Below are positions 1,097 to 35,660 of a DNA stretch of 64,000 nt, piece by piece. Origin of the DNA: Terriglobia bacterium (GTDB lineage Bacteria; Acidobacteriota; Terriglobia; Terriglobales; Acidobacteriaceae); the NCBI GenBank assembly GCA_020072815.1, contig JAIQGE010000006.1:124001-188000 (forward strand), read 5' to 3'. Both the position numbers and the translations under genes were made by a program. The notes under the pieces were generated by a model. It saw only the letters and a list, made by a program, of their open reading frames with translations. It was not told where the DNA came from and searched no databases. How positions within the stretch are numbered: position 1 is the first letter of the stretch; each line of letters begins with the position of its first letter.

Positions 1097-4000
1097 ACAT
1101 CGCCGCTCCATTCATCCGCCGTCCGGTCGCTACTTCATTGCTGGCGCTGGGCGTGCTGATTGCGGGAATCCTGGCGTACACGCGATTGCCCGTCGCGCCC
1201 ATTCCCCAGGTGGAATATCCGGTCATCAGCGTGAACGCCGGTCTGCCCGGCGCCAGCCCGGAGACCATGGCTTCGTCGGTGGCCACGCCGCTGGAGCGCC
1301 AGTTCGGACGCATTGCCGGCGTGAACCAGATGACCTCCAGCAGCCAACTGGGGTCCACCAGCATTACGATGCAGTTTGATCTCAGCCGCAACATTGACGC
1401 CGCCGCGCGCGACGTGCAAGCGGCCATCAACGCTTCTCTGGGCCAGTTGCCCGCCAACCTGCCGGTGCGTCCTAATTGGCGCAAAGTCAATCCCGCGGAC
1501 GCGCCCATCATGATCCTGGCGCTGACCTCAGACTCCGTCACCAAGCCGCGCATGTATGACATTGCCGATTCCGTGCTGGCGCAAAAGCTCTCGCAGGTGC
1601 CGGGCATCGGACAGGTGTTTGTCGGCGGCGGCGCCAAACCCGCCGTTCGCGCGGAAGTGAATCCCATGCTGCTGAGCAAGATGGGCGTGGGCGTGGAGCA
1701 GGTCAGCCGGGCTCTATCTGCGGCCAACGCCAATCGCCCCAAGGGCGAAGTGGCCAACGAGACGAACGCCTGGCAGGTTTCCGCCAACGACCAACTGTTC
1801 AAAGCCGAGGAGTACAGAAAGATCATCGTGGCCCGCAGCGCCAACGGCATCGTCCGCCTGGAAGACGTGGCTGACGTCCAGGATTCGGTGGAAGACATCC
1901 GCAACACCGGCCTGGCCAATGGAAAGCCCGCGGTGCTGATGATTGTTTTCCGCCAGCCCGGCGCCAACATTATTGAAGCGGTGGACCGCGTCAAGGCCCT
2001 GGTGCCGCAGCTCCAGGCGTCTATTCCCGCCGGAATTAAATTGGAAGTGGTCCTGGACCGCACCGGCACCATTCGCGCTTCCGTGCACGATATTCAGATC
2101 ACCTTGATCATCTCCATTGTTCTGGTGGTGCTGGTGGTCTTTCTCTTTCTGCGCAATTTGCGCGCCACGTTTATCCCCAGCGTGGCGGTGCCGCTTTCGC
2201 TCATCGGCACGTTCGGCGTGATGTACCTGCTGGATTACAGCGTGGACAACCTTTCCCTGATGGCCCTGGCCATCTCCACCGGCTTTGTGGTGGACGACGC
2301 CATTGTGGTCATCGAAGACATCACCCGCTACCTGGAACAAGGCATGGACCCGGTGGCAGCGGCGTTCCGCGGCGCCCGCGAAATCGGCTTTACCGTGATT
2401 TCCATGAGCACTTCGCTGGTGGCCGTCTTTATCCCGATTCTCTTCATGCAGGGCATCATCGGGAGGCTGTTCCGCGAGTTCGCCGTGGTGCTGAGCACGG
2501 CCATCGGCATGTCCTTGCTGGTGTCTCTCACGGTTACGCCCATGCTGTGCGCAAAATTTCTGCGCCCCGTCAACGAAGCGAAGCACGGCCGGCTGTACCG
2601 CTGGAGCGAGAGCGGCTTCGACTTTATTCTGAAGATGTATCGCTACAGCCTGGGCTGGGTGTTGCGCCACCAAGTTGTCACGTTGCTGGTGACCATTCTC
2701 ACGGCTGTCCTCAGCGTAGCGCTCTACTATTTTGCGCCCAAGGGCTTCTTCCCGCAGCAGGACACCGGACGCATGGGCGGCGCCATCCAGGCCGAACAGG
2801 ACATTGCTTTCCCCGCGCTGCGCGACAAGATGCAGCAATTCGTGAGCGTTGTGCAGAAAGACCCCGCGGTCAACACCGTGATGGGCTTCGCCGGCGGACA
2901 GGGGACATCGAACACCGGACGCATGTTCGCCACGCTGAAGCCGCCCGCCGAACGCGACAAGATCGGCCGCCGTCCGGTGACCGTGGACCAGGTCATCAAC
3001 CGCTTGCGCGGCAAATTGTCCGTGGTCCCCGGCGCAACCCTGTTCCTGACGGCAACGCAGGACCTCAACATTGGCGGGCGCTTTTCCAACGCCCAGTTCC
3101 AATACACCTTGCAGTCGGAAGAACTGGGCGAGCTGAATACCTGGGCGCCGCTGGTGCTGGCCAAGCTGCGCAGCTTGCCGGAGTTGCGTGACGTGAATAC
3201 CGATCAGCAGGACAAAGGCCTTTCCGCCGAAGTGATCGTGGACCGCGACACGGCGTCGCGCCTGGGGATCAGCCCCGCGCAAGTGGACGCCGCTTTGTAC
3301 CAGTCTTTTGGGCAGGCGCAGGTTTCCGTGATGTACAAGCAGCTCAACCAGTACCACGTGGTGATGGAGGTTGACCCCAAGCTTCTTCCCGGACCGGACG
3401 CGCTTAGAAACACCTACGTGAAGTCTTCCAACGGGACGGAAGTGCCCCTGGCCGCCTTCACCCAGTACCGGCCTTCCAACACCGCGCTGGGCGTGAGCCA
3501 CCAGGGAATTTATCCGGCGGCGACCATCTCCTTCAACCTGGCCCTGGGCGTGCCGCTGGGGAACGCCGCATCGGTGGTGGAGAAAGCCATGCGCGACATC
3601 CATGTTCCTTCCGCGGTGCACGGCAGTTTCCAGGGGACGGCGGCGGCCTTCAAAGACACGGCGCAGAGCCAGCCGCTGCTGATTCTGGCGGCCATCGTCA
3701 CCGTGTACATTGTGTTGGGCATGCTGTATGAGAGCACCGTGCATCCCATCACCATTCTCTCCACGCTGCCTTCAGCCGGAGTCGGGGCGATTCTGGCCAT
3801 CATGATCACTGGGAACGATCTCAACGTGATAGCCATGATCGGAATTATTCTGCTGATCGGCATTGTGAAGAAGAATGCCATCATGATGATCGATTTTGCC
3901 TTGCAGACCGAGCGCAGCGGCGACAACAAGTCCCCGGAAGACGCCATCTTTGAAGCGTGCATGCTGCGCTTCAGGCCCATCATGATGACCACCATGGCCG

Positions 4001-4230
4001 CGCTGCTGGGCGGGTTGCCGCTGGCCATCGGCACCGGCGTGGGCTCTGAGCTGCGGCGGCCCCTGGGGATTGCGATTGTTGGCGGACTGATCGTGAGCCA
4101 GGCACTGACTCTGTTCACGACTCCCGTGATCTATCTCTACCTGGACCGCATGCGCTTGCGCATCTCGCGCTGGCGCGGGGCCGGTAAGACGCGGCGAACG
4201 GAGCCGTTGCCGGGAACTAGCCTGGATTAG
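1093..4230 (+). CDS. RND efflux permease (MdtC/AcrB-type)
   Basis: This is a complete inner-membrane RND exporter subunit of 1045 residues, the usual length for the family. The N-terminus MNIAAPFIRRPVATS is typical of MdtB/MdtC-type subunits. The paired Asp residues of transmembrane helix 4 are present in STGFVVDDAIVV (near residue 400), and [12 protein letters not shown] and [15 protein letters not shown] lie near the C-terminus. I chose ATG 1093; an in-frame TTG at 1081 lies inside the repeat arm and would add four residues. No clear Shine-Dalgarno is present, perhaps because the cassette separated it from its partner gene. It probably forms a heteromer with the upstream permease and needs a periplasmic adaptor encoded outside the window. 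Confidence 0.95.
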   Translation: MNIAAPFIRRPVATSLLALGVLIAGILAYTRLPVAPIPQVEYPVISVNAGLPGASPETMASSVATPLERQFGRIAGVNQMTSSSQLGSTSITMQFDLSRNIDAAARDVQAAINASLGQLPANLPVRPNWRKVNPADAPIMILALTSDSVTKPRMYDIADSVLAQKLSQVPGIGQVFVGGGAKPAVRAEVNPMLLSKMGVGVEQVSRALSAANANRPKGEVANETNAWQVSANDQLFKAEEYRKIIVARSANGIVRLEDVADVQDSVEDIRNTGLANGKPAVLMIVFRQPGANIIEAVDRVKALVPQLQASIPAGIKLEVVLDRTGTIRASVHDIQITLIISIVLVVLVVFLFLRNLRATFIPSVAVPLSLIGTFGVMYLLDYSVDNLSLMALAISTGFVVDDAIVVIEDITRYLEQGMDPVAAAFRGAREIGFTVISMSTSLVAVFIPILFMQGIIGRLFREFAVVLSTAIGMSLLVSLTVTPMLCAKFLRPVNEAKHGRLYRWSESGFDFILKMYRYSLGWVLRHQVVTLLVTILTAVLSVALYYFAPKGFFPQQDTGRMGGAIQAEQDIAFPALRDKMQQFVSVVQKDPAVNTVMGFAGGQGTSNTGRMFATLKPPAERDKIGRRPVTVDQVINRLRGKLSVVPGATLFLTATQDLNIGGRFSNAQFQYTLQSEELGELNTWAPLVLAKLRSLPELRDVNTDQQDKGLSAEVIVDRDTASRLGISPAQVDAALYQSFGQAQVSVMYKQLNQYHVVMEVDPKLLPGPDALRNTYVKSSNGTEVPLAAFTQYRPSNTALGVSHQGIYPAATISFNLALGVPLGNAASVVEKAMRDIHVPSAVHGSFQGTAAAFKDTAQSQPLLILAAIVTVYIVLGMLYESTVHPITILSTLPSAGVGAILAIMITGNDLNVIAMIGIILLIGIVKKNAIMMIDFALQTERSGDNKSPEDAIFEACMLRFRPIMMTTMAALLGGLPLAIGTGVGSELRRPLGIAIVGGLIVSQALTLFTTPVIYLYLDRMRLRISRWRGAGKTRRTEPLPGTSLD

Positions 4231-4233
4231 GAT

Positions 4234-4370
4234 TTACCGCAAAGGTCGCGAAGGACGCAAAGGAATGGTTGGGCGTTATCAAAAACGTAGGGTAGGTCGA
4301 GCCGGGGAATCCGTTCGGGACAAAGCTCCAACAAAATTCCCTTTGCGATCTTTGCGTCCTTTGCGGTGAA
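4234..4370. repeat. Inverted repeat of the cgcaaaggacgcaaagg family
   Basis: The left arm (4234-4265, ttaccgcaaaggtcgcg then aaggacgcaaagg) is nearly the reverse complement of the right arm (4338-4370, ctttgcgtcctttgcggt). About 72 bp of non-repeated sequence lies between. It occupies the gap between two convergent genes, so it could also act as a transcription-ending or RNA-stabilising structure. Similar sequence occurs at 20621-20745 and 59795-59827. Confidence 0.7.
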
Positions 4371-4381
4371 CTTCTTAAAGG

Positions 4382-5062
4382 TCAGTGAGCTTTGACCGGA
4401 TTCTCCGCTTCCGCGGCTTGCAGGGCTTTCTTCTTGCGGCGGCTCAGAATAAAGGGACGGCGGCGGTGGCGCTCCACTCGTTTATCAATCTTCTTCCAAA
4501 AGCCCACAAAGTAATCAATCGCCGAGATCACGGACACCGCCACCATGAACCAAATGGCCATGATGGCCACCAGCCGCACCGGCAACACGATTCGTCCGAA
4601 GAACACCCACTCGTTCCATCGCATGGCCAGAATGGCCGCGACCACCGAGACAATCTGCACCACCATCTTCAGTTTGCCCAGTTCGCTGGCTTCAATGGTG
4701 AAGCCCTCCGACGCGGCGATGGAGCGCAGTCCGGAGATCAGAAATTCGCGGCCCACAATGATCACGGCCACCCAGACGCTCACCACGTCGGGGATCAAGC
4801 GCACCAGCGTAATGTACGCGGCGGCGATCATGAGCTTATCGGCCAGCGGGTCCAGCAGCATGCCCATGGTGGTGATCTGTCCGCGGCGGCGCGCCAGATA
4901 GCCATCAATGCCGTCGGTGATAGAGGCCAGAATGAAAATGCCGGAAGCCAGCACCACGCGAAGAGTATTGTCCCTGGAATTGAAGCGGGAGGAGGTAAGG
5001 ATCCAGATGATCAGCGGAATCGCCGCGATCCGTGACAGCGTAATGTAATTCGGCAGGTTCAC
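4382..5062 (-). CDS. pgsA: CDP-diacylglycerol--glycerol-3-phosphate 3-phosphatidyltransferase
   Basis: This 226-residue integral membrane enzyme makes phosphatidylglycerophosphate from CDP-diacylglycerol and glycerol 3-phosphate, the committed step to phosphatidylglycerol and cardiolipin. The CDP-alcohol phosphotransferase signature is complete: DGYLARRRGQ followed by G and DPLADK, giving the D-G-x2-A-R-x8-G-x3-D-x3-D pattern (residues about 50-75). N-terminus NLPNYITLSRIAAIP is typical. The start is GTG at 5060-5062. The C-terminus is extended by a basic tail (RRRPFILSRRKKK), a little longer than in the Escherichia coli enzyme. It is converged upon by the RND gene across the repeat at 4234-4370. 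Confidence 0.93.
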   Translation of the reverse strand: MNLPNYITLSRIAAIPLIIWILTSSRFNSRDNTLRVVLASGIFILASITDGIDGYLARRRGQITTMGMLLDPLADKLMIAAAYITLVRLIPDVVSVWVAVIIVGREFLISGLRSIAASEGFTIEASELGKLKMVVQIVSVVAAILAMRWNEWVFFGRIVLPVRLVAIMAIWFMVAVSVISAIDYFVGFWKKIDKRVERHRRRPFILSRRKKKALQAAEAENPVKAH

Positions 5063-5166
5063 TTGGGGACGCAGACGCCGACAATGGCTCCTATTATCTT
5101 ACTCCTAGAAAGAAATCCGTCCCGGAGAAAGAATCCTCTCCCGCCGGGCGAACTGGCCTTGGGCCG

Positions 5167-5379
5167 CTATCTCTTGCCATTCACGGTGTTTAGGCAGCGA
5201 GTATACAGCTCCATCAGGTGGCTGGCATAGTCTTCAGACTTGCTATCGGCGCCAGCTTGAAAGCCCGCGCCCGGGACCTGGGTTTTGCCGTAACCGGTGG
5301 TGGCGGCGATGAACTTCATCATGTCCAGCGCAATATCTTCATTGCGCCGTGAGGCCAAGAGTCCAGTAAGTTGGTCCAT
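5167..5379 (-). CDS. Small hypothetical protein (70 aa)
   Basis: This short gene is supported by a strong ribosome-binding site (GGAGGG, about 5 bases before ATG 5379). The product is hydrophilic, with no signal peptide, no membrane segment and a helical look (LASRRNEDIALDMMKFIAATT at the N-terminus). I do not recognise a family. It is co-directional with pgsA and about 100 bp upstream of it, so the two may share a transcript. Confidence 0.7.
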   Translation of the reverse strand: MDQLTGLLASRRNEDIALDMMKFIAATTGYGKTQVPGAGFQAGADSKSEDYASHLMELYTRCLNTVNGKR

Positions 5380-5420
5380 TTTCCCTCCGGGAAGTGTTGA
5401 TGCGGATATTGTAGCGAAAG

Positions 5421-5450
5421 GCAGTCAGCAATCAGCAATCAGCAATCAGG
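5421..5450. repeat. Heptad repeat, (tcagcaa)n type
   Basis: Four tandem 7-bp units (gtcagca, atcagca, atcagca, atcagg). The same low-complexity heptad in variants (tagcaat, ccaacag) recurs in many intergenic gaps of the window: 7833-7860, 19163-19256, 21775-21890, 22405-22437, 32980-33008, 37240-37275, 41515-41640, 53825-53855, 57515-57543 and 58790-58825. Confidence 0.7.
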
Positions 5451-5667
5451 CGATTCATGAGACGCGGCGAGGCCGGCTTGCGCGCCGAGCCGCCTGCTTC
5501 AGTCGCCAAAGGCTGACTGGTGGAAGAAAAAATCTGGAGCGGTGTGGAGCGTAGCGACAGAATTGAAGATCACCCGATGATCCGATCTCCCGATCCCACA
5601 GCGGCCTGCCAGCTTCTCGTCGCCCCGATACTGTATTCTGGATAGCGAAACGTCGAACAGTTCCACC

Positions 5668-6126
5668 ATGGATATCTCCTGGCTCACAGAACGCATCGCC
5701 CTGGGCGGCGGCATTTGGAATGAAGACAATATGGACGAGCTCGTCCAGCTGGGTGTGACTCACATCATCAACATGCAGATTGAGTTTGATGACCGTCCTC
5801 TGGCCGAAGGGTTTGACGTGAGCGTGCTGCACAACCCCACGGACGACGACTTCCAGCCCAAGCCACCGCTACTCTTCCAGCAGGGCGTGGATTTTGCGCT
5901 GGAAGCGCTGGAGGAAGCAGAGAGCAAGATTTACATCCATTGCGCCGCCGGCGTGCATCGCGCTCCCATGATGGCCCTGGCCCTTCTGCGTGTGATGGGA
6001 TGGCCGCTCACTGACGCCAAGGAGCTTATCCAGAAACGGCGTTGGGTGGTGGACTGGGCCAACGTGTACGTGGAAAGCGTGGAAACTTTCATGGAGACTT
6101 ATTCGGCGTCCAAGTCGCGCCCATAG
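5668..6126 (+). CDS. Dual-specificity/tyrosine protein phosphatase
   Basis: The product (152 aa) is a cytoplasmic cysteine-based phosphatase. The P-loop HCAAGVHRAP (residues about 90-99) matches H-C-x5-R-(S/A), with catalytic Cys and Arg. The general-acid region DEN-type loop is likely the NPTDDDFQPK stretch. The family removes phosphate from Tyr, Ser/Thr or non-protein substrates; here the substrate is unknown. It lies 27 bp upstream of a HipA-like kinase gene on the same strand, so an opposing kinase/phosphatase pair is possible. No strong Shine-Dalgarno precedes ATG 5668. Confidence 0.88.
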   Translation: MDISWLTERIALGGGIWNEDNMDELVQLGVTHIINMQIEFDDRPLAEGFDVSVLHNPTDDDFQPKPPLLFQQGVDFALEALEEAESKIYIHCAAGVHRAPMMALALLRVMGWPLTDAKELIQKRRWVVDWANVYVESVETFMETYSASKSRP

Positions 6127-6153
6127 CAACCCGCCTGTAAAATAAGCGCTGCT

Positions 6154-6975
6154 ATGCCCATTGCCGCCGTCCAGCACGTCCGCCGCATGCGCGGAGGGGC
6201 CCAAGCGCAACTCATGCGCGCCGATGACGGCCATTTCTACGTGGTCAAATTCCAGAACAATCCCCAGCACGTCCGCGTGCTGGCCAACGAATTTCTGGCG
6301 ACGCGCCTGGCCGAGCGCATCGGCCTTCCTGTGCCGGCGACTGAGATCATTGCCGTGGACCGCTGGCTGATTGAAAACACCCGCGAGCTGACCATGGAAC
6401 TGGCCGGCAGCGTGGAGCCGTGCCATACCGGACTGCAGTTCGGCGCGCGCTACGTGCTCGATCCCGCGAATGGCCAGGTCTTTGATTACCTGCCGGAAAC
6501 CATGCTGGAAAAACTCAAGAACCGCGCGGCCTTCGCCGGCATGCTGGCCCTGGACAAATGGCTGGGCAACGCCAACGGCCGCCAGGCGGTATTTTCCAAG
6601 AAAACGCAGGAACGCAAATACTCCGCCACGTTCATTGACCAGGGCTATTGTTTCAACGCCGGCGCGTGGGACTTTCCTGATTCCGCTCTACGCGGCGTGT
6701 ACGCCCGCAACTGCGTGTATCGCGACGTCGCCGGCTGGGAGCAATTTGAGCCGTGGCTTTCGCGCATAGAGAACTTTGATCCGGCGCTGATTCGCGATAT
6801 CGCAGGGGAAATCCCTCCGCCCTGGACGGGCGACGATTGGCAGGCGCTCGAAGGCTTGGTGGAAACGATCATTGCGCGGCGAAGCAAGGTGCGTGAGCTG
6901 ATTGCCGCGTTTCGCGATTCGTCGCGGCAACCGTTTCCGTCGTGGGCGGAAGAGAAGAAGAAGGTGGTGCAATGA
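6154..6975 (+). CDS. HipA-like protein kinase
   Basis: This 273-residue protein belongs to the small HipA-related kinases that lack the N-terminal HipA N1 domain. Kinase-like features are the phosphate-binding/Lys segment HFYVVKFQNNPQ (residues 29-40, Lys in VVKF), the catalytic-loop equivalent LDKWLGNANGRQAVF (about 131-145) and the Mg-binding FIDQGYCF (about 159-166, replacing DFG). The gene overlaps the next one by ATGA, which implies translational coupling. No HipB-type antitoxin is next to it, so a classical toxin role is not indicated. The partner DUF3037 protein and upstream phosphatase suggest a regulatory phosphorylation unit of unknown target. Confidence 0.85.
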   Translation: MPIAAVQHVRRMRGGAQAQLMRADDGHFYVVKFQNNPQHVRVLANEFLATRLAERIGLPVPATEIIAVDRWLIENTRELTMELAGSVEPCHTGLQFGARYVLDPANGQVFDYLPETMLEKLKNRAAFAGMLALDKWLGNANGRQAVFSKKTQERKYSATFIDQGYCFNAGAWDFPDSALRGVYARNCVYRDVAGWEQFEPWLSRIENFDPALIRDIAGEIPPPWTGDDWQALEGLVETIIARRSKVRELIAAFRDSSRQPFPSWAEEKKKVVQ

Positions 6976-7829
6976 TGGAAAAACATCAGTGTACGTTTTC
7001 ACTGTTGCGTTATGTTCCTGACGCGGTGAAGAACGAGTTCGTGAACGTGGGCCTGGTGCTGTTGCCAGCCGGCGGACAGCCGGAGCTGCGCTTCACTCGC
7101 GACTGGTCGCGCGTGCGCTGCCTTGATGCGCAGGCTGACGTGGAACTGCTCGAGTCGCTCGAAGCCGACTTGCGGGCCAAGCTGCATGACCTCAACGGCG
7201 ACCGTGACTTCATTCTCCGCCGCATGCAGGATTCGTTTTCCAACGCCCTGCAGCCCACGGAGTTCAAGGCCTGCCTGGCGGATTCTCCCGCGGCGGAAGC
7301 CGACGAACTGGCGCGGCTTTACCTGGAGCGTCCGCGCCGCGCTGGGTTGCGAGAAACAGGCACGCGCGAAGCCGGCAGCCGGCAGATCATTTATCGCCAG
7401 ATGCGGGACCAGTTTGAGCGCGCTGGCGTTTGGCCGCTCATGAACCGCGATATCAGAGCCTCTGATTACACTCGTCCCGGCGACCCGCTGAAGATTGATT
7501 GCGGTTACGCGCCGAACGGTTCCGCCGGCCCTGTAGGCGGCGTCGGTTCTAGCGGCGCCATCAAGATGTTCCACGCTCTGTCCTTGCAAACTGACGTGAA
7601 CGCGGCCAAGGTGCTGGCCTTTAGCTTCCCCCGCCTGGCCGACGGCATTGCCGCGCGCGAAGGCAAGCGCGCGCTGCTGACCGCCGTGGTTGAAGATGAC
7701 TTGCCCCACGACGATGAAAGCGTGGGCTTTGCCCTGGAAACACTGGAACAACAGCAGATCACCGTCGCGCCCTTGGCCCGAATCGCGTCGCTGGCGGAAA
7801 CGGCAGCGCGGGAGATGGGGTTGCGATAA
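6972..7829 (+). CDS. DUF3037 family protein
   Basis: The 285-residue product begins MMEKHQCTFSLLRYVPD, followed by KNEFVNVGLVLL, a hallmark of DUF3037 proteins (N-terminal ~120 residues). The rest is a less conserved helical region. I know of no function for the family, but it is repeatedly seen beside HipA-like kinases. The start ATG 6972 overlaps the kinase stop codon (ATGA). An alternative ATG is at 6975. Confidence 0.85.
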   Translation: MMEKHQCTFSLLRYVPDAVKNEFVNVGLVLLPAGGQPELRFTRDWSRVRCLDAQADVELLESLEADLRAKLHDLNGDRDFILRRMQDSFSNALQPTEFKACLADSPAAEADELARLYLERPRRAGLRETGTREAGSRQIIYRQMRDQFERAGVWPLMNRDIRASDYTRPGDPLKIDCGYAPNGSAGPVGGVGSSGAIKMFHALSLQTDVNAAKVLAFSFPRLADGIAAREGKRALLTAVVEDDLPHDDESVGFALETLEQQQITVAPLARIASLAETAAREMGLR

Positions 7830-32711: not shown

Positions 32712-33098
32712 AGCGCGCTGAAAGGATTGCGCCTTTCAATCCCTGTGGCCCATACGGCGCAACTGAAGTTGGTGACCCTGATATTGAATCCGTTATAAAA
32801 GCACATATTGCCGGCGCTTCGCCCAGGGTGACAGACTGAAGACGAGTGGGCGAAAATGAACACCTCCGCAACTTCGACTTGTCAAGATGTACAACTTCGT
32901 GCTGTATTCGCTAATAGAAATGCGCTATGATGAAGTGCGCCTCAGGGTGTGAAAGAACATAGATCATTGAAAAAATAAGCGCTTAGCAATCAGCAGTCAG
33001 CAATCAGCCACGGCAAGGAGCCTGTGCCCCGCAGCCGATTCGAATGGGACCCCATTGGGATGGCTCGCCGCTAAGTCCTTTGTTTATTGGGACCATTG
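32712..33098. other. Gene-free gap with repeats before the transposon
   Basis: Contains a gccggcgcttcgcccagggtgacagac unit of the TGTCATCCTGAGC family (about 32811-32838), a heptad block (32980-33008) and a 39-bp unit (33054-33092) that recurs at 35566-35602 on the far side of the transposon. No gene is evident. Confidence 0.5.
33054..33092. repeat. 39-bp unit, copy 1 (interrupted by the transposon)
   Basis: attgggatggctcgccgcta followed by agtcctttgtttattggga. It resembles 35566-35602 (gttgggatgcgtcgcgtaag, then ttctttagatattggga). The similarity resumes across the transposon after the target duplication (gggatgaataggaagggg vs gggatgaacagggagggg). Confidence 0.6.
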
Positions 33099-33176
33099 GG
33101 TAACAACATACTTGACTCATGTGTTGGATTCGCGCACACTGGGGCTGCCGTGACAGGGCTATTGGTTTTGCTTGCT

Positions 33177-34151
33177 TTACTTTATTTCATTGTATCTGGC
33201 GCACGTAGCAGTCGCTCCCGAAGCGAGATGTATGCCACAAAAAGTGCTGCTGTACTCATTCCCAAAAGTGTCACGGTAAGCTACGCGGCCCGTTACGAGC
33301 AGCGTGGCATCTCTATCTCTGGCTGTCTTGAGAGAATCACCAGAGAATGTATCAGTCGTCAAAACGGTTACGAACATGTCATTTCCCGGCAATACGGGTG
33401 CCGTGGAATGGTGGGTCAGCTTGGAGCATTGAGCGTCAATACGTTCCTCAGTCACTTCTTCCTCTTTGATGGGTTCTTTCGCCCACCAAATAGTGATGCA
33501 GTTTCTTACATTGATAGCGGGCGTTCGACCGGAGTTGACGATATGCACGTTCCAGGAAACGGGCTTTCCATCCTCAAACTTCGGGGAGTCCGGCTTGAAC
33601 CAAAGATAAGGTCGCTGATCGCGGGCAAAGTTTTCGCGGGCCAGAGTTACAGAAGCATGAGCAGTGTCCGCAGATCGCTTGGCTTCTTTGGCAAGGTCAC
33701 TTGTAGCTCCAATGAGTTTGTCCGTCTTCGCCAGCGACTCCCCCATTTTCTTAGTCTGCTCGATGGCTTGCTTGGATTGAGTATCAGCAGCGACCGCCAA
33801 GGTGTGAGTATCGGCACTTCCCTGGCGAATTTCTTTCAAGGTGGCATCGGCGGCATTCGCGCTTTTTGTCGCGGCTTCGGTGGCAGTGCGCATTTGGTTG
33901 AGTTGGCCGTTGTAAATGCAGGCAATGACGATGGTAGTTATCAGCAGAGCACCATTAATGCCTATAAGCCATATCTCGCCCTTTTTTATGTCCCGCTCAA
34001 GCTTTACGGTTGCATTCTCTTTCTCGTTGGTTCCGCACTTGGAATCTTCTCTCATTTCGTTTTGTTGTATAGCGGGTTGAAGTGGAGGCTTAGAAAAAGA
34101 ATCTTGGTGGGCATCCCCGGCTGGTGTGTCGCCGCTGTTTTGATCTGGCAT
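33177..34151 (-). CDS. Transposon passenger: membrane protein with coiled coil
   Basis: The 324-residue protein has a hydrophilic N-terminus of ~65 residues, one transmembrane helix (IWLIGINGALLITTIVIACIY, about 67-87) and a coiled coil of ~100 residues rich in Ala, Thr and Lys (TEAATKSANAADATLKEI onward). A beta-rich C-terminal domain starting at RDQRPYLWFKPDS completes it. Proteins with this QLNQMRTATEAA plus QRPYLW layout occur in many bacteria and have no known function. The opposite strand has a frame of similar length (33087-34178), but it lacks such a domain structure. Confidence 0.75.
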   Translation of the reverse strand: MPDQNSGDTPAGDAHQDSFSKPPLQPAIQQNEMREDSKCGTNEKENATVKLERDIKKGEIWLIGINGALLITTIVIACIYNGQLNQMRTATEAATKSANAADATLKEIRQGSADTHTLAVAADTQSKQAIEQTKKMGESLAKTDKLIGATSDLAKEAKRSADTAHASVTLARENFARDQRPYLWFKPDSPKFEDGKPVSWNVHIVNSGRTPAINVRNCITIWWAKEPIKEEEVTEERIDAQCSKLTHHSTAPVLPGNDMFVTVLTTDTFSGDSLKTARDRDATLLVTGRVAYRDTFGNEYSSTFCGIHLASGATATCARYNEIK

Positions 34152-34207
34152 GGAACTAGCCTTTTACTTGGGATATAGACGCGCAATTTTAACAAGAGAG
34201 GTTTATT

Positions 34208-34423
34208 ATGCAAGTAGTACCTGCAATGAAAGTCCCCGAAAAATACGAGCCGAAAAACGCTGATGAATTCGGCACGTTTGACCGCGCCATGACGCGACTC
34301 CTAGCTGTTCCCGCTAAGGAACTACAGCGCAAAATCGCCAAAGACAAAAAGCAAAAGGCCAGGAAGAAACGCGCTAAAACCAGCGAACGCGGCCCTTCCC
34401 GCGATTCTGGCGGCGAGGTTTAA
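34208..34423 (+). CDS. Transposon passenger: small basic protein (71 aa)
   Basis: ATG 34208 is preceded by AGAGAGG. The product has an acidic/neutral N-terminal half (EKYEPKNADEFGTFDRAMTRLLAVPAKEL) and a strongly basic C-terminal half (KIAKDKKQKARKKRAKTS). The N-terminal part, DEFGTFDRAMTRLLAVPAKE, resembles short proteins found with toxin-antitoxin or plasmid loci. I do not assign a function. It is divergent from the membrane protein (57-bp gap). Confidence 0.65.
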   Translation: MQVVPAMKVPEKYEPKNADEFGTFDRAMTRLLAVPAKELQRKIAKDKKQKARKKRAKTSERGPSRDSGGEV

Positions 34424-34434
34424 AGCGTTTCCGC

Positions 34435-35409
34435 TCAGGGTTGCTCCGCTCTGCGACCCGTCAACTGATCGTAGGTTAGGCGTTTGTCGCAAATCTGCGA
34501 GACTGCCATGCGGAAACGGTCACCGTCGCCAATGAACTGCTTTTTGGTCGCACGATTATTGAAACGGAACATCTGTTCGTCAAGGTATCTGTAAAGATGA
34601 AAAGGTTCGACGCTAACGTAAGTCCCCTTAATCCCGCGCTTAAAGAGACTCCAAAAGTTCTCCATGCCATTCGTGTGCACCTGTCCGCTCACGTAGGTTT
34701 CAGCGTGGTCAACGATCTGGTGGATGTAGTCGGCATGGAGTCCCCAATAGCTCTTGCAATCATCCGTGGACAGATAAGAGCCGGGTTGGACGTGCTGCCT
34801 GACAAGAGCTTGCAGCGTGTTGCGTTCGCGGTCAGGCGTAACTTCCGTTCGCACTTCGCCGCCACGCTCAAGGATTCCGACTACAACGGTCTTGCCGCCG
34901 AACCCGCGCCTGTTAATTCTTTCCCTCTTGTCCTTGTGCATGAACCGGGCCTTACCGCCGATGAAGGTTTCATCTGCCTCGACGTGCCCGGAGAGTTTTC
35001 CCAAGGGTTCTTTGTGCAACGAAAGCCGGATTCTGTGGGCCATGAACCAAGCGGATTTTTGCGTGACTCCCAAGCAACGGTGAAGTTCGTAAGAGCTAAT
35101 CCCGTTCTTGTCATTGCAGATCATCCACATTGCCGCCAGCCATTTGTCGAGGCCGATTGCGCTGTCCTCCATGATTGTTCCGACCTTGATGCTGAATTGC
35201 CGCCGTTTGTGTTCGTTGACACACTGCCAAAGACGGCGCGTCGAGAGATAGTGGACTTGCTTACCGCCGCAAGTGGGGCAGATCACCACGCCATCGGGCC
35301 AGCGTTTCTTCGCCAGATACGCAAGGCAGTTGTCCAGATCGCTGAAATAGGTGATCGCTTCTTGGAGCGTTTTCGGTTCTTTCACATAGCCTGTCATGTC
35401 AAAAAGCAT
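34435..35409 (-). CDS. IS1595-family transposase (ISXO2-like DDNK)
   Basis: The ~324-residue transposase has an N-terminal zinc-ribbon (CPTCGGKQVHYLS and WQCVNEH) and the catalytic ISXO2-like domain: GHVEADETFIGG (first Asp), YLSTDDCKSYWG (second Asp) and VHTNGMENFWSLFKRGIKGT (Asn and Lys of DDNK). Two in-frame ATG codons are inside the element (35409 and 35397); a longer frame would cross the terminal repeat. All catalytic positions are intact. Confidence 0.93.
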   Translation of the reverse strand: MLFDMTGYVKEPKTLQEAITYFSDLDNCLAYLAKKRWPDGVVICPTCGGKQVHYLSTRRLWQCVNEHKRRQFSIKVGTIMEDSAIGLDKWLAAMWMICNDKNGISSYELHRCLGVTQKSAWFMAHRIRLSLHKEPLGKLSGHVEADETFIGGKARFMHKDKRERINRRGFGGKTVVVGILERGGEVRTEVTPDRERNTLQALVRQHVQPGSYLSTDDCKSYWGLHADYIHQIVDHAETYVSGQVHTNGMENFWSLFKRGIKGTYVSVEPFHLYRYLDEQMFRFNNRATKKQFIGDGDRFRMAVSQICDKRLTYDQLTGRRAEQP

Positions 35410-35486
35410 AGCACTTTTGTTCGCATGAGTCAAGTATGTTGTAACCGACCATTGGGATGAATAGGAAGGGGTGGGGGGATCCCAAT

Positions 35487-35513
35487 GAGATTGCCAAAAT
35501 CGCCGAAATTGCC
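35487..35513. repeat. gattgccaaaatcgcc repeat, copy 1
   Basis: gagattgccaaaatcgccg followed by aaattgcc; matches 39303-39328 almost exactly over 24 bases. Both copies are intergenic. Confidence 0.6.
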
Positions 35514-35565
35514 AAGAGTGACGATTGAGAACCGGCACTCCTGGAGTGCTTCTGAAAGGCACGCC

Positions 35566-35660
35566 GTTGGGATGCGTCGCGTAAGTTCTTTAGATATTGG
35601 GATGAACAGGGAGGGGTAGGGCTCCCTCACCCGCTGACGCGGGATTCGGGATTTCAGAAA
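35566..35660. repeat. 39-bp unit copy 2 with adjoining REP-like element
   Basis: 35566-35602 matches 33054-33092. It is followed by gggaggggtagggctccctc (35609-35628), a variant of the ataggg-tccct REP-like arm, and cgctgacgcgggattcggga (35632-35651). Confidence 0.55.

Follow-up and report, generated by a model that had tools for sequence, protein, structure and literature searches.

An IS1595-type transposon from an acidobacterium and its relatives carry exchangeable cargo, probably often of the defense or toxin type

We analyzed a 64,000-nucleotide stretch of contig JAIQGE010000006.1 from a Terriglobia bacterium (the whole stretch is called the window, and coordinates are counted from its first letter) with regard to a 2,348-bp transposon at 33099-35446, which carries an IS1595-family transposase gene, a gene for a small basic protein of 71 amino acids (aa) that we designate sm, and a cargo gene for a 324-aa protein. 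The element is a member of a clade that keeps one end, the transposase, and sm constant and replaces one or a few cargo genes as a block. The cargo that matches known families in this clade is mostly of the defense, nuclease, or toxin-antitoxin kind, and the cargo probably pays its way.

The terminal inverted repeats of the window's element, located at 33099-33121 on the cargo side and 35424-35446 on the transposase side, are complementary at 22 of 23 positions, and the cargo-side repeat is of the same end type as in relatives. Exact copies of the 8-bp direct repeat GACCATTG flank them at 33091-33098 and 35447-35454, with the shared run amounting to 10 bases since GG comes next on both sides. 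The left flank (32847-33098) is part of a dispersed intergenic repeat that was the insertion target of the element and that has 30 matches in its own genome, the query itself included and many of them partial. Among eight other copies of this repeat from the same genome, seven had an empty site of the form CATCCCAATG[G/A]TCCCAATAAACAAAGGACTTA, in which the flanks are joined through one copy of the 8-mer; the uninterrupted site reads CAATGGTC, or CAATGATC in one copy (L246), and a single additional A follows at some distance in another copy (L250). The eighth copy (L244) deviated from this pattern. Given the terminal repeats, the 8-bp duplication, and the empty sites, these data show that 33099-35446 moved as one unit. 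An earlier reading made from the sequence only had called this segment a complete IS1595-type transposon with two non-transposase open reading frames (ORFs) inside it, and both the assignment and the places of the two ORFs were confirmed.

While the full element is single copy in its own genome, a related element (L075; genome G000, contig C2) sits at the identical base of another copy of the dispersed repeat and in the same orientation. With two related IS1595 elements using the same base in different copies, the repeat may be a preferred landing site. The repeat family itself, with the core CATCCCAATGGTCCCAATAAACAAAGGACTTAGC, occupies 32847-33098 and 35455-35621 in the window and recurs at G000:C1:577359, C5:163799, C7:121680, and other places; an Rfam scan near the element gave no match at E values up to 1.

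The transposase is encoded on the minus strand at 34435-35397, with 35397 taken as the start because relatives are similar from there; an open frame extends upstream of it. It matched DDE_Tnp_IS1595 (1.8e-42), Zn_ribbon_IS1595 (1.7e-11), and NF033547 (7.8e-55), and residues D143, D213, N248, and K254 of the 321-residue translation from 35400 are candidates for its DDNK set. According to the sections consulted of PMC8101967, a DDE_Tnp_IS1595 catalytic domain and an N-terminal zinc ribbon are features of the IS1595 family, and terminal repeats beginning with GG are stated for the related Merlin elements. Both domains are present in the window's transposase, and the element combines an 8-bp duplication with terminal repeats that start with GG. 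An insertion sequence (IS) of this family usually has one transposase gene and nothing else. The window's element departs from this plan by the two further genes inside its ends, the very departure by which a transporter IS (tIS) is defined, and we filed it as a tIS and not as a plain IS; the intact 324-aa gene inside the repeats has no part in transposition and is replaced by unrelated genes in close relatives.

Related elements were collected in two sets. The first, consisting of sm loci and other places (80 loci plus the window), was searched for inverted arms with a target duplication, and the second was drawn from 60 genomes of the family with the transposase as the sole criterion. Transposases of group A were ~49 to 100% identical to the window's and those of group B ~31 to 44% identical. 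The final set comprised 62 group-A elements (48 chosen mainly by sm and 14 by transposase alone) with lengths of 1601 to 4584 bp (median, 2547; in L088, the shortest, the transposase is truncated) and 16 group-B elements of 1952 to 4173 bp. An exact 8-bp duplication was found in 59 of the 62 group-A elements, largely by selection, and these 59 sites have the weak palindromic consensus C-W-W-N-N-W-W-G. None of the 78 delimited genomic elements was a bare IS; all had extra DNA beyond the transposase, so that in both sampled groups the presence of cargo is the rule.

In most cases, the cargo occupies the segment from sm to the far end of the element, and comparisons of sister elements reveal abrupt changes of cargo. 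L163 and L164, which come from one genome, are 91% identical over positions 1-1268 and then have only the last 26 bp in common; L099 and L131 are 81% identical over 1-1201 and then share the last 27 bp; and the window's element and L070 are 73% identical over 7-1252 and then share the last 42 bp. As judged from these alignments, cargo has evidently been replaced as a block during evolution. A transposase tree was built with 77 rows, 40 of which had labeled cargo (13 labels); these required 22 label changes, compared with a mean of 25.0 in 300 label shuffles, two of which gave 22 or fewer, while DUF3800 against the rest required 11 changes, compared with a shuffle mean of 11.6 (133 of 300 at or below). 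Because these counts are close to those of the shuffles, the cargo follows the transposase hardly at all and is nearly random relative to it, with a trace of inheritance. Unrelated cargo was carried even by well-supported sister pairs, namely, L128 (AIPR) and L143 (DUF3800-like), L123 (HNH-like) and L115 (DUF3800-like), and L099 (ATPase-DUF3226) and L131 (DUF433/PIN-like).

When the 130 group-A cargo ORFs were compared with Pfam, the recurrent families were DUF3800 (10 matches), RelA_SpoT (3 matches), and AIPR, DUF4145, and DUF6932 (2 matches each). SocA_Panacea, AAA_15/AAA_21, DUF3226, GmrSD_N, SLFN_AlbA_2, HNH, PIN, DUF433, and DUF5615 were single cases, and helix-turn-helix domains appeared once or twice each. 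The 28 group-B cargo ORFs gave PIN (2 matches), PIN_10, Zeta_toxin, DUF433, a Cas2-like match, DUF3800, DUF2335, and Proteasome. As a control, 143 ORFs from the flanks matched 136 Pfam families, the 25 listed of which were mostly enzymes, transporters, and regulators. Cargo with a match to a known family is thus mostly of the defense, nuclease, or toxin-antitoxin type, unlike the flanking genes. Strong and specific PADLOC matches in the cargo included AbiU (4.8e-171, two members), PDC-S33 (7.3e-115, three members), AbiLi (5.2e-43), and AriA (6.1e-23). In addition, a YxD[ED]S-type motif near the N terminus was present in 15 of the 130 cargo ORFs and in none of the 143 control ORFs. A check on DUF3800 was independent of element borders: across the 60 genomes, 5 of 24 DUF3800 matches lay within 2 kb of one of the 84 listed IS1595 transposase matches, where ~0.04 would be expected by chance according to our own arithmetic. 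We consider DUF3800 to be defense-like, by analogy, because the part of PMC10910872 consulted reports a predicted RNase H-like fold and an association with Cas12a2 loci. One small transposon (L120; G192:C32, element at 3706-7205) carries a RelA/SpoT-domain protein together with a SocA/Panacea-domain antitoxin, which probably form a mobile toxin-antitoxin pair.

Several observations weigh against this reading of the group. Among the 130 cargo ORFs, at least 86 are without a Pfam match, and some ORFs are spurious frames, so the defense label derives from the matching minority; the matches also include families that are not known to have a defense meaning (AzlD, DUF2513, DUF6941, DUF4258, BCD, DUF4131, PH_9, and Proteasome). 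For DUF3800, the commonest match, we know of no demonstrated defense function, and when it is set aside, defense-like families account for little more than half of the matches. PADLOC families numbered 112 in the control (25 of which were listed), 101 in cargo set A1, and 5 in cargo set A2; the control matches are numerous because the library holds many broad enzyme models, and PADLOC tallies alone fail to separate cargo from control. The transposase tree is of a quick type, and its cargo labels were assigned partly by eye. With regard to the borders, the second-screen control on the same strand gave pairs with an exact duplication at 13 to 14 of 20 positions for 10 of the 41 copies of the transposase. 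Of the elements that were kept, L162, L163, L170, and L180 reach only 14 of 20; these 14-of-20 elements rest also on family-type end sequences. Finally, two elements from the IMG/VR collection, L236 (1,731 bp) and L237 (2,044 bp), contain hardly any convincing cargo or none.

The window's own cargo gene lies on the minus strand at 33177-34151 and was recognized by its ORF, its relatives and their alignment, and a low-confidence model. It is separated from the divergent sm gene by 56 bp (34152-34207), which would act as a promoter region. The 324-aa protein has a disordered N terminus (residues ~1 to 52), a membrane helix by eye (~60 to 80), a helical or coiled-coil region extending to ~178, and a C-terminal beta domain (183 to 309) in which the alignment revealed a conserved N-x-G-x-T-P-A. 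Of 298 genomes from the order, 27 encode relatives, its own genome counted. A 363-aa ORF on the plus strand (33087-34178) overlaps this frame; it had no match in Pfam, the only library searched with it, and was dropped as a candidate gene, since the 324-aa frame is the one with protein relatives. The 324-aa protein had no convincing match in Pfam (at its threshold), NCBIfam, PADLOC (no family at E values up to 1), or PHROGs, so that no known defense family accounts for it. It was likewise unmatched in plasmids, phages, IMG/VR, and a genome-contig collection, the collections being scanned with short exact peptide patterns that detect close relatives only. A search of solved structures by sequence gave two matches with E values of 0.35 and 0.97, which we take as chance. 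A single-sequence model had a mean predicted local distance difference test (pLDDT) score of 58, and Foldseek with this model returned mostly inward-rectifier potassium channels at a template modeling (TM) score of ~0.25, which is no more than a hint of an immunoglobulin (Ig)-like fold in the modeled C-terminal domain. We conclude that the protein is probably anchored in the inner membrane and contains a coiled coil and an Ig-like domain; its charge and cysteines, assessed by eye, suggest that it perhaps faces the periplasm, and it most plausibly acts at the envelope.

The sequence-only reading had suggested that passenger genes traveling with an IS may give a selectable or defense trait. A defense trait is plausible for the group on the strength of the family matches; for the 324-aa gene, which had no convincing database match, it would be a proposal. 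It is a serious possibility that the 324-aa gene is instead a neutral hitchhiker, an envelope protein trapped by chance and useless to the element. Consistent with this possibility, the protein lacks a family match, and 25 of its 27 other relatives had no terminal-repeat pair with an exact duplication within ~1.5 kb or less of flank; the cargo may therefore be an ordinary envelope protein that was picked up a few times. The remaining two loci, together with the intact 324-aa frame, argue against chance trapping. In a congener (L068, genome G187), the relative occupies the same position beside an sm that is 78% identical, and a terminal repeat that matches follows immediately; in a second genus (L073, genome G156), it lies inside a delimited element whose transposase frame is interrupted. 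Much weaker likenesses were found beside sm in L069 and inside the element L167. Moreover, the nearest elements, L070 and L075, carry cargo that is unrelated to the window's, yet these genes also appear by eye to encode membrane proteins, the one in L070 with a coiled coil. A transposase fragment also lies ~0.6 kb from the relative in L074, at a contig end. For the window's cargo, no other single role seems to us quite as likely as envelope-level defense or exclusion.

At the level of the group, our working explanation is that the transposase would move the whole unit into sites like CWWNNWWG and that the cargo would persist by paying its way, in that it would either protect the cell, and hence the element, against phages and other mobile DNA or make loss of the element costly. 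Within this scheme, sm would be an accessory or regulator encoded by the element, usually placed as the downstream gene on the cargo strand, and the window's cargo would be an inner-membrane anchor that presents a coiled coil and an Ig-like domain. The costly-loss alternative, taken as the general rule, is selfish addiction, in which toxin-antitoxin-type cargo is kept by punishing transposon loss and brings no benefit against phages. We regard it as unlikely to be the general explanation, even though RelA_SpoT and SocA_Panacea occur together in L120, DUF433, DUF5615 (both assigned to L131 by our own reading), and PIN are found in group-A cargo, and Zeta_toxin and PIN are found in group B. Toxin-antitoxin genes are also integral to some Tn3-family transposons, as described in the portion consulted of PMC7157771. 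Nevertheless, many cargo genes, such as those for DUF3800, AIPR, and HNH proteins, are single genes with no obvious antitoxin. In addition, the contigs over which the genomic copies are scattered look like chromosomes, and addiction would be expected to be weaker there than on plasmids.

The sm gene of the window lies on the plus strand at 34208-34423, convergent with the transposase gene, and was characterized by searches, a profile, and a two-helix model. Its 71-aa product was found in 53 of the 298 genomes of the order. In 23 of 30 sm loci with flanks, an IS1595 transposase lay close by, mostly tail to tail, and several of the remaining 7 loci are near contig ends. At E values up to 0.05, an sm profile detected the gene in 59 of the 62 elements of group A but gave no match in the 16 elements of group B or in the flanks. 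The profile rows came from 33 of the 62 group-A elements, and the matches in L158 and L168 were weak; sm was detected in 26 of the 29 group-A elements that gave no profile row and in 11 of the 14 chosen by transposase alone (five of which gave profile rows). In two of the three misses (L156 and L167), a divergent gene resembling sm stands where sm would be expected. An alignment of 33 examples contains basic proteins of 52 to 73 aa and gives the consensus F..am..lLsVpHsEikakL.aEK..Kk. The model has two helices (pLDDT, 74; predicted TM score [pTM], 0.33), and no function was derived from it. Because sm recurs in 59 of 62 group-A elements, in no group-B element, and in no flank, it is a core gene of group A and not a passenger. 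Accordingly, of the two non-transposition passengers that the sequence-only reading had proposed, only the 324-aa gene holds up. The same reading would have counted as refuted if the passengers never occurred with the transposase elsewhere. The 71-aa protein does occur with it elsewhere, and the 324-aa protein was in or beside such an element at 2 of 27 other loci.

Since sm stays with the transposase through changes of cargo, it is most likely an element-encoded accessory or regulator of transposition. A competing view is that sm has no role in transposition but serves all cargo as a universal antitoxin or as an immunity partner. This view would fit the position of sm, which in 32 of the 40 elements with labeled cargo shares the strand of the cargo gene and lies downstream of it (4 of these on the plus strand; the orientation coordinates were entered by hand), and an in-frame fusion in one element, but we think it improbable. 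A single partner for cargo families that are mutually unrelated is hard to envision, and sm is divergent from the cargo in 7 of 40 elements, including the window's (L144 shows neither arrangement). Furthermore, sm similarity tracks the transposase in the closest relatives, L075 (sm, 71%; transposase, 74%) and L070 (sm, 69%; transposase, 73%), despite their unrelated cargo. Nor do the 324-aa and 71-aa genes of the window form a toxin-antitoxin operon, as they are divergent and sm goes with many unrelated cargo genes. The fusion occurs in L143 (G167:C45, element coordinates 1023-2096), where a DUF3800-like protein is joined in frame at its C terminus to sm.

The borders on which these comparisons depend came from two screens. 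In the first, 47 of 81 loci were delimited, and 66 transposase copies were tested. In the second, with 20 loci per group, a pair was found in 15 group-A and 18 group-B loci, of which 14 and 16 were kept, each with 0.9 to 3.6 kb beyond the transposase (L161 also has 1.5 kb before it). That the delimited units are chance repeat pairs, and their cargo plain neighboring DNA, is very improbable in spite of the same-strand control in the second screen and the 3 of 66 direct-strand controls in the first with scores of ≥26.5, in the same score range. Inverted arms allowed 47 of 81 loci to pass the first screen, the majority of arms start with a common family motif of the GGxAATAATATACTTGAC type, sister elements have both ends but not the middle in common, and the window's copy has empty sites. 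L107 and L073 were added by hand (13/20 arms, exact duplications), and the borders of L106, L158, and L081 were shifted by hand, after which the duplication check fails for L158 and L081. Three candidates (L093, L179, and L189) were dropped as false terminal-repeat pairs. A codon-usage gene caller trained on the transposases performed poorly on the cargo and was replaced by plain ORFs of ≥100 aa; the cargo of L077 and L129, missed by this rule, was added by hand. One further locus, L154 (G125:C27, 5908-8641), appears to be a real element whose cargo is apparently on the other side of the transposase, with repeats matching at 15/20 positions and an exact 8-bp duplication; it was excluded from all counts.

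Beyond the genomes of the order, a phylum-wide search detected sm in 19 of 297 genomes from seven families. Neither the genome-contig collection nor the plasmids gave a confirmed match to the 71-aa protein, and the highest identity of a plasmid match to the transposase was 43%. IMG/VR contained 14 contigs with group-A transposases (51 to 62% identity), 6 of which were delimited and 9 of which carried sm. By eye, two of these contigs (L231 and L241) have terminase-subunit-like ORFs, and phage-borne spread of group-A transposons is possible. Some of the group-A transposons on these contigs (L229 to L242), which are classed as viral, have HEPN-like or PIN-like cargo by eye. A more far-reaching proposal, which we advance only tentatively and which is doubtful as a whole, is that these are phylum-wide, possibly phage-travelling miniature "defense cassette" transposons in which sm is usually read with block-swapped cargo, consisting of single- or two-gene defense and toxin modules of which many are unknown, and that the window's protein would be a new envelope-acting defense effector.

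IS1595 elements with passengers reportedly were named "transporter IS" by Siguier, Gagnevin, and Chandler in 2009, with ISNha5 as an example. The parts consulted of PMC11891212 and PMC3129680 describe this tIS concept and a transcription regulator carried by ISNha5. Like those elements, insofar as they are described there, the elements in this study have an IS1595 transposase, short terminal repeats, an 8-bp duplication, and passengers unrelated to transposition, but here cargo is the rule, is exchanged as a block, and gives matches that are mostly of the defense, nuclease, or toxin-antitoxin kind, and in one group a second, small gene is conserved. A transposition core with highly variable cargo of the defense and toxin-antitoxin kind is also known from Tn7-like transposons, 96% of which carry cargo that is enriched in such genes, according to the sections consulted of PMC8649781. 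The elements studied here differ in having a single transposase followed by only ~0.9 to 3.6 kb, with sm counted. Several transposition proteins and larger cargo characterize the Tn7-like elements. Tn3-family transposons, according to the consulted portion of PMC7157771, have toxin-antitoxin genes in the transposition module, and close relatives differ in their passengers. Our elements resemble them in both respects but have a different transposase family, no resolvase that we could see, and cargo that extends beyond toxin-antitoxin pairs and is itself the changing part. DUF3800, linked to CRISPR loci in the part consulted of PMC10910872, here rides IS1595 elements as the commonest matched cargo family. 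Our literature search, in which subscription literature was mostly out of reach, found no paper on IS1595 elements with defense cargo or on such elements in Acidobacteria. Within the literature found, a clade with near-obligatory, block-exchanged cargo of the defense or toxin type and a conserved small gene was not described.

If the pattern holds, transposon borders would mark candidate defense and toxin genes without the need to guess genomic islands, and everything between sm and the far end would be mobile cargo. Given that most of the cargo has no known family, it would provide a ready list for screening. In an Rfam comparison of 11 related loci, no DUF3800-linked RNA was found; the loci contained two Acido-Lenti-1 RNAs, both outside the elements, which, judging from the family name, would fit the acidobacterial phylum.

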